Of a stretch of DNA of 64,000 nucleotides, positions 22,652 to 26,956 are shown piece by piece. The notes beneath the pieces are model-generated. The model had not been told where the DNA came from and did not search any database. It saw only the letters and a program-made list of their open reading frames with translations. The position numbers and the translations under genes are program-made. Position 1 is the first letter of the stretch, and each line of letters begins with the position of its first letter. Source of the DNA: Paludisphaera soli (GTDB lineage Bacteria > Planctomycetota > Planctomycetia > Isosphaerales > Isosphaeraceae); the NCBI RefSeq assembly GCF_011064595.1, contig NZ_JAALJI010000007.1, positions 124,001 through 188,000 of the forward strand. Direction: 5' to 3'.

Positions 22652-23794
22652 CTACGGCAGGGGTTTGGGAAGATCCGTCCCCTCGTTTCGTCCGTTTTTC
22701 GGCGTCGATTCCGCGTTCGGTTCGTCGCTCTCGGCCGGCGACGGCGGCCCGGGAGGCCGCGGCGAGGGGAGAAAGGCGCCCGGTCGGGGGACGGTGCGGA
22801 CCTTGATCGAGAGGGTCTCGTCGCCGCGGACCACCGTCAGCGTTACCTCGTCGCCGACCGGCCTCCGGTCGATCGCGCGTTGGAACGCCTGGGAATCCGG
22901 GACGTCGCGGCCGTCGACGGCCGTGATCCGATCGCCGGGACGCAGCAGGATACGCTCGGCCGGGCTCTCCTTCGCCACCCCGATCACCAGGGCGCCGGGT
23001 GCGTCGAGGCCACGGGCCGCCGGGAGCGGCCGGTCGGGGCCGAGCAGGACGCCGAGATAGCTCCTCGGAGGACCTCCCCCCTCATCGAAATCGGCGATCG
23101 CCGCGCGGATGCGGGCGGACGGGATCGCCGTCGTGAAACTCCCACGCGGCCTGCCGAGGACGAACGGCCCCTCGATCGGGACGGCGACCCCCACCGTGAG
23201 GCCCTCGCGATCGAGGACGGGGCCGCCCGCGTTCTCGACGGCCACCATCGCGTCGATGGGGAACGACGCGAGTTCGGAGCCGGGATCGTCACGGTCGCGA
23301 CTCGAGGCGACGATGCCGGCCGTCGCCAGGATCCGGCCCTCCGGCGAGCGTCCGATCGCAAAGAGATCGTCACCCAGCTGCAGCCTGGTCGAATCGCCCA
23401 ATTCGGCAGCCACGAGCCCTGGCGTCGCCGGGTCGACCTGGAGGAGGAGGAGCTCTCCGGCCGGATCGGCGTGGAAGACGCGGAGGACCGGCCGGGGCTC
23501 GCCGTCGGACAGGACGACCTCGGCCCGGAAACCTCCGAACAACGCCCGGCCCGTGGTGGCGACGAGCCCTCGCCCGGCGTCCACGACGACCCCCGCGCCC
23601 GACGGTCCGGCGATATCGCGCATCGGGTTTCGGACCGCACGGATCGCCGCGACGGAGGGGCCGACCTTCGCCGCCGCCCGGCGGATCGCCTCGGCCCGCG
23701 AGTTCGGGCCCGCTTCCTGAGCCGGGGCCACCGCCGGGGCCACGATCATCGCGAGGGCCAGGGCCCATCGACGACCAATCTTCGAGGTGAGCAT
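22652..23794 (-). CDS. HtrA/DegP-like protein with PDZ domain, catalytic triad lost
   Basis: A 380-residue exported protein: signal peptide (residues 8-26), a trypsin-fold domain (about 40-240) and one PDZ domain (about 255-345, with LRPGDRITAVDGRDVPDSQAF), then a proline-rich tail. The fold is recognisable by GPSGAGVVVD and ENAGGPVLD, but all three catalytic positions are changed: the His region reads VATTGRAL, the Asp position is Glu114 in DPAGELLLLQV, and the Ser is Ala189. It is therefore probably a non-proteolytic binding or chaperone protein of the envelope. GGAG lies eight bases before the ATG at 23794. It follows the TPR gene after 82 bases and precedes the NtrC regulator. Confidence 0.85.
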   Translation of the reverse strand: MLTSKIGRRWALALAMIVAPAVAPAQEAGPNSRAEAIRRAAAKVGPSVAAIRAVRNPMRDIAGPSGAGVVVDAGRGLVATTGRALFGGFRAEVVLSDGEPRPVLRVFHADPAGELLLLQVDPATPGLVAAELGDSTRLQLGDDLFAIGRSPEGRILATAGIVASSRDRDDPGSELASFPIDAMVAVENAGGPVLDREGLTVGVAVPIEGPFVLGRPRGSFTTAIPSARIRAAIADFDEGGGPPRSYLGVLLGPDRPLPAARGLDAPGALVIGVAKESPAERILLRPGDRITAVDGRDVPDSQAFQRAIDRRPVGDEVTLTVVRGDETLSIKVRTVPRPGAFLPSPRPPGPPSPAESDEPNAESTPKNGRNEGTDLPKPLP

Positions 23795-23876: not shown

Positions 23877-25229
23877 TCAACGGATCGGGATCAGGTCTCG
23901 GGGCTTCGTCTCGGGCTTGCCGGCATCGGTCTTGGGCGCCTCGCCCTTGTCGGAGCCGGCGCCTAGCTTCTCCTCGACGGACTGGCGGAGGATGCCGGGG
24001 CTGACGAACGGGAGAGCTTTCGTGCGGCGGCCGCCCTTCAGGATGACGACGACGGGCTTGGCCTGGGGGTCGTTCGGGGCCAGGGTGACGGTCTTCTTCT
24101 CCTCGGCGGCGTCCCCCTCGTGGGTGATCGTCTCCAGGGTCAGCCGGGTCGTCGGCTTGGCGGGGTCGGTCGCGATGGGCATGATCCGCACGGTGTAAGC
24201 GCCGTCGAAGCCTCGGGGGCAGACGTAGATCTCCTCGGGGCGGCTGCCCAGGCCGTTCTTGATGAGGGCGCCGCCGAAGACGGAGCGCGGCATGGAGTAG
24301 GAGACCGTGGCACCCAGGGGCTCCTCGACGACGAGGTCGAAGTCCGCCTCGCCGTCCCAGGTCAGGCGGATGTAGACGTCGCGGGCCTCGGCGGCGGGGA
24401 GGCTTGCAAGGAGCTTCTCGGCCTCGTCCGTCCGGGCTTCCTCGGTGAGCGCCTTGGCCAGGATCTCGGCCTGCTTGCGGCTCTCGCCGCGGAAATACTC
24501 ATCCTGGCCGGGCCAGCCCAGCGAGAGGAGCCTGGCGATGGACTCGGCCATCCTCTGAGGATCGCGGGTCTTCTGGGCCAGGTTGATCGACATGGCCAGC
24601 GGCTCGGCGCGGTGGGGGACCTTCTCGGCGGCCTCGTCGAGAAGGGGGCCGACGCGGTCGGTGAACCCCTTGAGCAGGAGCTTGTCGGCGGCGCTGACGA
24701 GGTGGTTGGGGTTGTGCGAGCGCTGGGCGAGGTCGGCCGCGTAGTTGAGGGCCTTCTCGACGTCAGCCGGCTTGCCGCCGTTCATCTCGATGGCGAGGGC
24801 GAGCGCCTCATACATCCAGAATTCGGCGTTCTTGGGCCGGTGCTGCAGGTAGCCGAGGATCGCCGCGTGGACCTCGCGAGCGAGGGCGGCGGCGTTTTCC
24901 TCGCTCTCGCTGGCGCTGCGATTGAGCAGGCGGACGGTCTCGTGAAGCTGGTCGGGCGTCTCGTCGTGCTTGCGATAGTATTCCGACCAGTAGGCGTAGG
25001 GGTCGTTGCCGCCGGGGGCCGGTTTGGCGTTCGCAGGGCCGCCGGTGATCGGGATGAGCCCGTCACGGGCCGAGCGGCCGGGGGAGGTGGGGGCGTTGCG
25101 GACCTTGGGGCCGGCGTTCTTCTCGGGAACGCCAGCGGGACCAGCCGGCTTGCGACCGGGCTGGTCCCGCGGAGCTTCGTTAGCGGGCCGGTTGGATCCG
25201 GCCCCAAACGGGGTCAGTTGCTTTTTTTT
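23877..25229 (-). CDS. TPR-like C-terminal region, in -1 frame of the upstream gene, no own start codon
   Basis: A frame of about 450 codons that runs from the A9 run to the stop at 23877. The first ATG, GTG or TTG is at 24815, well inside protein-like sequence; codons from 25213 to 24816 read as coherent protein (for example DPYAYWSEYYRKHDETPDQL). The order is a polar linker, helical TPR-like repeats (about residues 70-280), a beta-rich domain (YIRLTWDGEADFDLVVEEP) and a charged tail. It could be expressed as an extension of the secretin-like protein by slippage on the A9 run, from the CTG at 25217, or the run may be mis-sequenced by one base. Function unknown; probably in the envelope. Confidence 0.75.
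   Translation of the reverse strand, partial: KKKQLTPFGAGSNRPANEAPRDQPGRKPAGPAGVPEKNAGPKVRNAPTSPGRSARDGLIPITGGPANAKPAPGGNDPYAYWSEYYRKHDETPDQLHETVRLLNRSASESEENAAALAREVHAAILGYLQHRPKNAEFWMYEALALAIEMNGGKPADVEKALNYAADLAQRSHNPNHLVSAADKLLLKGFTDRVGPLLDEAAEKVPHRAEPLAMSINLAQKTRDPQRMAESIARLLSLGWPGQDEYFRGESRKQAEILAKALTEEARTDEAEKLLASLPAAEARDVYIRLTWDGEADFDLVVEEPLGATVSYSMPRSVFGGALIKNGLGSRPEEIYVCPRGFDGAYTVRIMPIATDPAKPTTRLTLETITHEGDAAEEKKTVTLAPNDPQAKPVVVILKGGRRTKALPFVSPGILRQSVEEKLGAGSDKGEAPKTDAGKPETKPRDLIPIR
25136..25169 (-). other. RNA hairpin downstream of the A9 run
   Basis: A perfect 11-base-pair stem, CGGGACCAGCC (25136-25146) against GGCTGGTCCCG (25159-25169), inside the TPR-frame coding region. A second smaller stem (GGGCCGG 25185-25191 with CCGGCCC 25198-25204) lies nearer the run, starting 17 bases after it in the transcript. 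Such structures could assist frameshifting, but they may simply reflect high GC. Confidence 0.5.
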
Positions 25230-26956
25230 TGCATGAGGGCGCCCGCGGGGTCGTCCTGGGTCGGGACGACCGGGATGGACATCATGCCCATACCGCCGCC
25301 CATGCCGCCCATGCCACCCATGCCGCCGCCGCCCATGCCGCCCATACCGCCGCCCATGCCGCCCATGCCGCCGCCCATGCCGCCCATGCCGCCGCCCATA
25401 CCGCCACCCATGCCGCCGCCGCCCGAGATGAGCGAGATCGGGATGAGGGCGAGGTCGGCGACGGGGTAGACGCGGATCTCGGTCTGCTGGTCTTCGGACT
25501 CCTGCGAGGTGACCATCAGGAAGCCGTCCTTGACGGTGTACGTCAGGCCGATCTGGCGGAGCATCAGGCGGAGCGTGGTCTTCAGGGGCACGCCGTCGAG
25601 GTCGAGCGAGACCGGCGAGGTCATCGTCTTGTCGGCTTCATTGAGGCCGATCGGGTCGACGTAGATGGGGATGCCGTTGTCGGCCGGGGTCTGGGTGGCC
25701 TGCTTGACGTACTTGAGGACGTCCTCGAGGGGCGTCTCGTTGGGGAAGTTCATCGCCAGGGGCTCGTCGAGCTTGGCGAGGATCTGCTTGGTCTTGGGGT
25801 CGCGGTCGAACACGTCGACGGCCTTGCCGTAGCGGGCGATCCGGCGCTCGGAGAGGCTGCGGAAGAGGGCCGCGTCGGGATACTCGATGATCTTGTCGTC
25901 GGGGAAGGGGACCGCGGCGCGGGCGACGTCTTGCATCGTCAGCATGAAGCGGTATTCCTTCAGCTCCTCGAACTGCTTCTCCTGCGAGAGGAAGCCCATG
26001 GTCGTGGAGACGAACATGCCGGCGTAGGGGGCCGGGCTCTCGTCGCTATAGGGGAGGGTGCCCTTGTGCATGAGCGACCGCGCGTGCTGAGCGAGCAGGC
26101 GGGCGTCGTAGAACGGTGCCGTCGACAGGCCGATGTTCCCCATGCCGCCGTTGTAGAGGGAGTTGTAGACGCCCTCGCCCATCAGCGTGTCGAACTGGTT
26201 CATCATGGCCTTGATGGTCTCCTGGTTGGCCACCAGTTGCGACAGGCCGCGATTGCGCTGCTCGGCGGCCGACTCGACCCGCTGACGCTCGATCCGCTCG
26301 GAGACGATGCGTTCCTCGTCGCGGATGGTCGACAGGTACTGGGCCTGGATGCGGCGGTCGAGTTGGTTGCGGACGCTCTCGGGGACGTTCGAGGCCGACC
26401 GCACGACGTTCTGGGCCAGGCGGAGGGTGTCGAGGGCCGCCTCCGGATTGCCGTTGCGGACCATCTCGCGGGCCGCGCTCATCCGCTGCTCGACGTCGCT
26501 GGTGAGCTGCTGGCGGGCGATAGCGTCGGCGCGGTCCGACTCCTCGAGCGTGGCCCGGCTGTTGGGGCCGGCGTCGGGCGGGGCGGGGGGCGTCGGTTGG
26601 GCCGGCTCGGCGGGGGGCGTCGGCTGGGCCGGCTGGGCGGGGAGGGTCTCGGCGACGCCGGGGGCCGGAGGAGCCGGGGCGTCCTGCAGGGCCACCTTGA
26701 AGAGGCGGTCCTGGGCGGCCTTGGCCTCGTCGAGGCCCTTCACGGCGTCGGCGTTGTCGGGGTCGATCTCCAGCGCCTTCTGGAAGAAGGAGCGGGCCAT
26801 CCCGCCGGCACCCTGCGCCAGCGCCTGCCGGCCGAGGTCCGTCAGTTGTTCGGATAGCGGCGGGGCATCGTCGCCGCGCGACGCGGCCCCGGACAGCAAT
26901 ACGCCGCCCAGGGTCAGCAGCCCGGCGCCTTTCCACAGTCTCGCGGTTCGGGACAT
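25214..26956 (-). CDS. secretin-like envelope protein with TPR, STN-like module and Gly-Met-rich tail
   Basis: A 580-residue exported protein from the ATG at 26956 (GGAGAG upstream). A signal peptide ends near residue 28. One TPR-like helix pair follows (about 35-75), then a Pro-rich linker, a long helical region, and a module like the secretin N-terminal short domain (about 445-530: NETPLEDVLKYVKQAT, GIPIYVDP, VSLDLDGVPLKTTLRLML, YTVKDGFLMV). The C-terminus is a Gly-Met-rich run encoded at about 25290-25420. The protein stops two codons after an A9 run (MQKKSN). Unlike true secretins it lacks the large beta-barrel domain. The same module occurs at 62972-64000. Confidence 0.85.
   Translation of the reverse strand: MSRTARLWKGAGLLTLGGVLLSGAASRGDDAPPLSEQLTDLGRQALAQGAGGMARSFFQKALEIDPDNADAVKGLDEAKAAQDRLFKVALQDAPAPPAPGVAETLPAQPAQPTPPAEPAQPTPPAPPDAGPNSRATLEESDRADAIARQQLTSDVEQRMSAAREMVRNGNPEAALDTLRLAQNVVRSASNVPESVRNQLDRRIQAQYLSTIRDEERIVSERIERQRVESAAEQRNRGLSQLVANQETIKAMMNQFDTLMGEGVYNSLYNGGMGNIGLSTAPFYDARLLAQHARSLMHKGTLPYSDESPAPYAGMFVSTTMGFLSQEKQFEELKEYRFMLTMQDVARAAVPFPDDKIIEYPDAALFRSLSERRIARYGKAVDVFDRDPKTKQILAKLDEPLAMNFPNETPLEDVLKYVKQATQTPADNGIPIYVDPIGLNEADKTMTSPVSLDLDGVPLKTTLRLMLRQIGLTYTVKDGFLMVTSQESEDQQTEIRVYPVADLALIPISLISGGGGMGGGMGGGMGGMGGGMGGMGGGMGGMGGGGMGGMGGMGGGMGMMSIPVVPTQDDPAGALMQKKSN
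25222..25230 (-). promoter_or_regulatory. A9 slippery run (possible recoding or transcriptional slippage site)
   Basis: Nine consecutive A on the minus strand, read in frame as CAA AAA AAA AGC, then AAC TGA. It contains the heptamer A AAA AAA. A -1 shift, or insertion of one A by RNA polymerase, bypasses the TGA and enters the long open frame ending at 23877. A9 runs are known to cause transcriptional slippage in Thermus dnaX. A sequencing error of one base in the run would look the same. Confidence 0.55.

Follow-up and report, generated by a model that had tools for sequence, protein, structure and literature searches.

A 64,000-nucleotide stretch of Paludisphaera soli DNA (the window) carries on its reverse strand a gene made of two overlapping reading frames, which meet at a run of nine A (A9). 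Comparison with related genomes makes it likely that this is a single gene kept out of frame by a selected run, with slippage setting the frame and a hairpin gating the end of the transcript. In a more detailed form, towards which the balance of the evidence leans, the count of A that RNA polymerase writes into each transcript would determine in cis both the frame read beyond the run and whether transcription stops at a terminator inside the gene, about a hundred bases further on, an arrangement that appears to be kept in two families of the Planctomycetia. Stuttering of RNA polymerase on the A run would probably decide, transcript by transcript, whether a short or a long exported protein is made.

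The junction and its conservation

In the window the product of the upstream frame ends in ...ALMQKKSN*, and the junction reads ALM CAA AAA AAA AGC AAC TGA, with the stop two codons past the run as the original prediction from this sequence had it. The description of this gene as secretin-like in the same prediction did not hold, since domain searches gave only a weak match to STN (secretin N-terminal short domain) and no secretin beta-barrel domain in either half. The -1 frame, which had been reported as open for about 450 codons, indeed runs for 450 codons to its stop at 23877; its product reads KKKQLTPFG...PIR*, and the first ATG, GTG or TTG after the run occurs at 24815, in codon 138. Purifying selection acts on the downstream frame, and already does so before this first start codon: in comparisons among species of the window's genus, the upstream frame has a dN/dS of 0.18-0.24, the downstream frame 0.20-0.34 and the stretch from the run to the first downstream start 0.22-0.37.

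A comparison with orthologues, as the original prediction had proposed, was carried out on a set with one genome per species (in the labels G stands for genome, L for locus, g for genus and f for family, and G000 is the window's genome). The upstream protein was sought in 59 related genomes and is present in all 59, and the downstream half was sought in 249 genomes of the class; a further search of the genome contigs for related loci yielded three and added little. Family names were anchored by plasmids: f1 corresponds to the Isosphaeraceae, with G024 as Isosphaera pallida and G031 as Singulisphaera acidiphila, and f2 to the Planctomycetaceae, with G097 as Planctopirus limnophila; G002, from the window's genus, is 'Planctomyces' sp. 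SH-PL62 and has a plasmid resembling that of Paludisphaera borealis. The nine A are present in both I. pallida and P. limnophila. In most Isosphaeraceae genomes the upstream frame is open for about 560-740 codons and ends at the same point, and every locus of this family in the 59-genome set that reaches the junction has exactly nine A. The full tally is 43 A9 and one A10 among 44 readable Isosphaeraceae genomes (of 45 in the set) and 60 A9, one A10 and one A8 followed by G among 62 Planctomycetaceae genomes. Taken together, exactly nine A are found in 103 of 106 genomes from 52 genera, and proteins of the two families are only about 25% identical. The window's genome (7.97 Mb) has runs of at least nine A at only five places and the same junction recurs in 103 of 106 genomes; therefore, its presence here is far beyond chance.

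The stop codon behind the run is conserved as well. In both A9 families the upstream frame always stops 1-10 codons past the run, and its stop codon ends 8 nt past the run in almost every Isosphaeraceae genome and 3-30 nt past it in Planctomycetaceae; genus g3 is an exception with 10 nt and the run in another phase, and in one contig of f1, which is cut, the stop is unreadable. The two A10 genomes, G163 and G166, read the gene as one frame, and the flanks of the run in G166 (L124) are nearly identical to those in its close relative G036 (L126), which has nine A, so that the two differ by one base in the run. The deviating run of G157 is A8 plus G (AAAAAAAAG). Outside the Isosphaeraceae, most families have both halves in one open frame of about 1,300-1,600 codons without any A run, and the Planctomycetaceae are the only other family with a split gene and A9 at the junction. 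The tree shows two changes of the A9 state, of which one is forced by well-supported branches, and the state may have arisen once or in each family.

Loci L079 and L080 (G041, family f6) have the two halves in different frames without any A run, at a contig break; an assembly error, separate genes or other recoding are candidate explanations. Furthermore, G031 (L128) and G014 (L129) carry a second gene copy that encodes the short form only and has no A run, which suggests that the short form has a role of its own.

The hairpin behind the stop codon

Both hairpins that had been noticed downstream of the run exist, but they differ in weight. The one nearer to the run is weak and not conserved; the second (core 25136-25169) folds strongly (z = -4.1) and has counterparts across both families. 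A first fold scan in 70-nt windows gave a weak signal because the hairpin straddled the edge of a scan window, and it was found by a stem search over 150 nt. The mean best stem score in the 150 nt after the run is 29.7 in Isosphaeraceae and 33.4 in Planctomycetaceae, compared with 17-21 in other windows of these genes and 18-21 when control windows and shuffles are taken together. With one locus per genus, the stem scores above all ten shuffles in 36 of 43 genera, and a strong stem-loop is present in 40 of the 43. It starts at a median of 47 nt past the upstream stop codon (10-90%: 31-66 nt). The stem is stable and rich in G+C, its sequence differs between genera, and in the window's genus two pairs have changed on both sides with pairing kept. 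Among the non-Watson-Crick stem positions 33 are G-U and 12 A-C, and this excess indicates that the sense RNA is the folding strand.

A terminator is the more fitting reading of this element, a stimulator of frameshifting the less fitting one. Right behind the stem, where most relatives have a T-enriched tail, T makes up 0.34 of the next nine nucleotides versus 0.17 (p = 2.6e-6), the eight nucleotides ahead of it are A-rich (0.39 versus 0.21), and control windows have no T tail. Several genomes have runs of 4-8 T after the stem, and the copies at L169, L170, L158 and L163 look like textbook intrinsic terminators; in L169 a 17-bp stem is followed by a T run (...CGCCCGT TTTTTTTG). The short-only paralogues L128 and L129 also end in textbook intrinsic terminators 48-61 nt past their stop codon, a distance similar to that of the hairpin studied here. 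The linker of the single-frame families has no such hairpin and no raised stem score, and the strong hairpin is absent from G163, where ten A put the gene in frame.

A hairpin that terminates transcription would give the run a second consequence. In Escherichia coli, a terminator is fully active when it lies more than about 27-30 bp downstream of a stop codon, and is strongly suppressed once a single inserted base lets ribosomes run into it (PMC4824070). The gene described here has the same geometry as these constructs, with slippage of RNA polymerase in place of the inserted base, and hence we propose a slippage-gated terminator. RNA polymerase would slip on A9 and produce mRNAs with differing numbers of A. 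The unslipped mRNA would encode the short form of 580 amino acids, and the ribosome translating it would halt ahead of the hairpin, which could then fold and end transcription to give a short mRNA. On an mRNA with one extra A (A10, or A8 or A11 in the few genomes with a +1 arrangement) the downstream frame would be read into a long form of about 1030 amino acids with the TPR and DUF2135-like domains, and the trailing ribosome would cover the hairpin so that transcription continues. In this way the number of A would set where each transcript ends as well as the frame in which it is read. A short form together with a long form of about 1030 residues carrying TPR and beta domains had already been suggested and is, judged from the sequences, still the best reading.

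The most serious competitor, although we regard it as unlikely, accepts that slippage makes both forms and gives the hairpin another role, for instance as an element that stabilizes the RNA or protects its 3' end. It would account for the imperfect U tract in many genomes and for the fact that a consensus terminator scan did not list the hairpin of the window, and a hairpin remaining at the 3' end after Rho termination would look alike. The T enrichment directly behind the stem with A-rich sequence ahead of it, the textbook U tracts in some genomes and a stop-to-stem distance like that of the true terminators in the short-only paralogues are less easily explained in this manner.

Slippage, ribosomal frameshifting and lesser alternatives

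The original prediction had left open whether the A9 run supports -1 ribosomal frameshifting or transcriptional slippage. Transcriptional slippage fits the comparative data better, and programmed -1 frameshifting at A AAA AAA/G in the run, stimulated by the downstream hairpin, seems to us rather improbable. A heptamer A AAA AAA is available in all three phases of A9, the A8G of G157 supplies A AAA AAG and a hairpin downstream is conserved, all of which frameshifting would use. However, the run lies in phase 2 relative to the upstream codons in most Isosphaeraceae, in phase 0 in most Planctomycetaceae and in phase 1 in genera g3, g49 and g105, and the gene tree requires at least six changes of codon phase. 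A -1 heptamer takes seven of the nine A, a different seven in each phase, but all nine positions are invariant, those outside the heptamer as much as the others. Among the 103 A9 genomes, 99 have the -1 arrangement and in one the contig breaks off ahead of the run; the remaining three, G076 and G142 (two species of genus g45) plus G067, need a +1 shift despite A9. The shift direction has changed twice on the tree with the run retained, which is hard to square with a -1 ribosomal signal and is expected if RNA polymerase makes mixed lengths. A Shine-Dalgarno-like stimulator upstream of the run was seen in 2/43 and 2/38 only, and the hairpin starts at medians of 53 and 64 nt past the run (usually 48-75 nt) instead of the usual 5-9 nt and has the traits of a terminator.

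Further details concern the run itself. In L081 only 7 nt separate the stop of the downstream frame from that of the upstream frame, and the shift must therefore occur inside the run. AAA accounts for 23% of the lysine codons in these genes in Isosphaeraceae and 48% in Planctomycetaceae, and with such a low share AAG would be expected in place of the run. Conserved run length among homologues has been proposed as a mark of purposeful transcriptional slippage by Baranov and colleagues (PMC1088944), and both the run length and the organisation of overlapping frames are conserved here. Slippage on A/T runs in bacteria mostly inserts one base (PMC5574713), in agreement with the -1 arrangement that prevails here.

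Some observations do not agree well with a slippage-gated terminator. The A8 plus G run of G157 should slip less, and as A AAA AAG is present in it, this genome may rely partly or wholly on ribosomal frameshifting. G166 has kept the hairpin although its ten A put the gene in frame. The T tail is poor in the window (CGTTCCC), likewise in many Isosphaeraceae, and termination there could be weak or Rho-assisted. Furthermore, no clear hairpin was found at the usual place in the Planctomycetaceae loci L166, L167 and L172 and in genus g3.

Phase variation, in which mutation of the DNA run between nine and ten A would switch the long form off and on within a population, is very improbable. The two A10 genomes and the single A that separates the sister species G036 and G166 would agree with it, but free switching should give a mix of run lengths instead of nine A in 103 of 106 genomes sampled once per species, and purifying selection acts on the downstream half even though nearly all of them have it out of frame.

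There is even less to recommend two independent genes with the downstream frame translated from its own start. Such a state does exist in family f16: at L083 (G153, 2591-2760) each half forms a gene by itself, the downstream one with its own GTG start and a signal-peptide-like N-terminus (VRTFVVTTLTACSLGGLALVGVSRAEE). In the A9 families, however, the first downstream start codon is scattered from codon 4 to codon 138 with none conserved, contrary to what a separate gene would require, purifying selection extends ahead of it, and conservation of the run would be needless. Termination-reinitiation at CTGA or TTGA, or a separate downstream gene, was likewise rejected, as the stop is overlapped by CTG, TTG, CTA, GTA, TTA or ATA depending on the genome, with no conserved start among these codons. 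The downstream half of both families has no signal peptide of its own, which makes fusion to the upstream half its likely route of export. A one-base error in the homopolymer, which the original prediction regarded as the main rival, or a pseudogene can practically be dismissed, because homopolymers are error-prone but identical runs of nine A recur in 103 genomes of two families and 52 genera, including finished single-contig genomes, and both frames are under purifying selection.

Protein, neighbouring loci and known systems

The positions of all features are compiled in Table 1. The STN region was matched in 20 of 32 homologues and is alpha/beta in the structure model. The downstream half begins with a disordered linker ahead of the TPR-like domain, for which Foldseek returned TPR matches and Pfam TPR was found in homologues. 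PF09906 (DUF2135) was matched in 4 of 57 homologues (best E 2e-4), with P0002 itself without a match. Foldseek gave nothing significant for the upstream model and only TPR proteins for the downstream half. A VWA domain precedes these domains in Planctomycetaceae and, by reading the sequence, in the single-frame homologues; no VWA match was obtained in the window's Isosphaeraceae form. The protein probably serves, once exported, as a scaffold or in binding.

Table 1. Features of the two-frame gene in the window (P0001, upstream half; P0002, downstream half).
Feature	Position	Strand	Remarks
Upstream frame (short form, 580 aa)	25214..26956	-	putative N-terminal export signal, TPR-like N-terminus, long helical region, STN, Gly/Met-rich tail
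STN-like region	25505..25759	-	P0001 residues ~400-484; PF07660, E=2.5e-4
Gly/Met-rich disordered linker	25283..25426	-	immediately ahead of the junction
A9 run (putative slippage site)	25222..25230	-	nine A exact in 103/106 genomes, three codon phases
Short-form stop codon TGA	25214..25216	-	
Downstream (-1) frame, 450 codons	23877..25229	-	C-terminal half of the predicted ~1030-aa long form
First hairpin	25185..25204	-	weak (z = -1.5), not conserved, probably incidental
Terminator-like stem-loop within the downstream frame	25132..25173	-	40 nt past the short-form stop; core 25136-25169
TPR-like helical repeat domain	24387..25001	-	P0002 residues 77-281; AlphaFold pLDDT mostly >90
Beta domain, DUF2135-like	24039..24383	-	P0002 residues 283-397; strands in the model

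A trypsin-like/PDZ (HtrA-like) protease is encoded directly downstream (22652-23794, reverse strand), with a similar neighbour in G028; it was not found around the Planctomycetaceae copies. The gene neighbours in the window are partly common to Isosphaeraceae and were not found at the Planctomycetaceae copies, and therefore they provide no functional clue. No other A9 run of the window's genome was seen to link a pair of long conserved frames, with L063 uncertain, and most of these runs adjoin inverted repeats or fall outside clear genes. G000 (L065, G000:C165:97383) and G002 (L188, G002:C1:1191820) share a further A9 on the same strand at a distance of about 51-52 kb, with similar flanks and apparently near F-type ATP synthase genes. 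At L064 (G000:C154:222092) and L189 (G002), an A9 beside a GC inverted repeat (CCGCCGGTCG..CGACCGGCGG) is retained in both species; in L064 it sits behind an RpoD-type sigma factor gene and probably belongs to the terminator of that gene.

Among ordinary chromosomal genes, only scattered cases of programmed transcriptional slippage are known, and if our reading is true, the gene described here would be among the most widely conserved of them. The organisation of the planctomycete cell has been debated, and a functioning gate would require ribosomes to trail RNA polymerase closely, so that this gene would allow one to test directly whether transcription and translation are coupled in these bacteria. 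Annotation pipelines, on the other hand, may call the downstream half a pseudogene or assign a false start in these genomes. A search of a literature collection found no report of this slippage gene with a terminator, and the main text of the one survey in it that includes two planctomycete species is silent on the gene family. To our knowledge, no earlier slippage gene has been coupled to an intragenic terminator, and we know of none behind the run in dnaX (tau/gamma) of Thermus thermophilus.

In other respects dnaX is a close parallel, as slippage on nine A in a gene of a GC-rich host gives two forms (PMC1088944), but in dnaX the long form is the one that the A9 DNA encodes and slippage shortens it, whereas here A9 encodes the short form and slippage would extend it. 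A poly-A run also restores or changes the frame in mxiE, spa13 and spa33 of Shigella and tssM of Citrobacter rodentium (PMC5009743, PMC4256274); these cases are confined to single species or lineages, in contrast to the 52 genera of two families and the additional terminator-like hairpin found here. IS elements of Deinococcus, Nostoc and others share a conserved run length of 9A between two open reading frames, with slippage giving an ORFA-ORFB fusion (PMC1088944), but they are mobile, whereas the present gene appears to be a resident one for an exported protein. The VWA-STN-TPR-DUF2135 exported proteins of other Planctomycetia show the same order of STN, Gly linker, TPR and DUF2135-like domain, but are encoded in a single frame (1,330-1,600 amino acids) with neither A run nor hairpin. 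The proposed gate itself resembles translation-controlled attenuation (pyrBI, amino-acid operons) and the E. coli tR2 constructs, in which the position of the ribosome decides whether an intrinsic terminator forms (PMC4824070); attenuation depends on ribosome stalling in a leader peptide, whereas here the decision would be made by slippage of RNA polymerase within the coding sequence.

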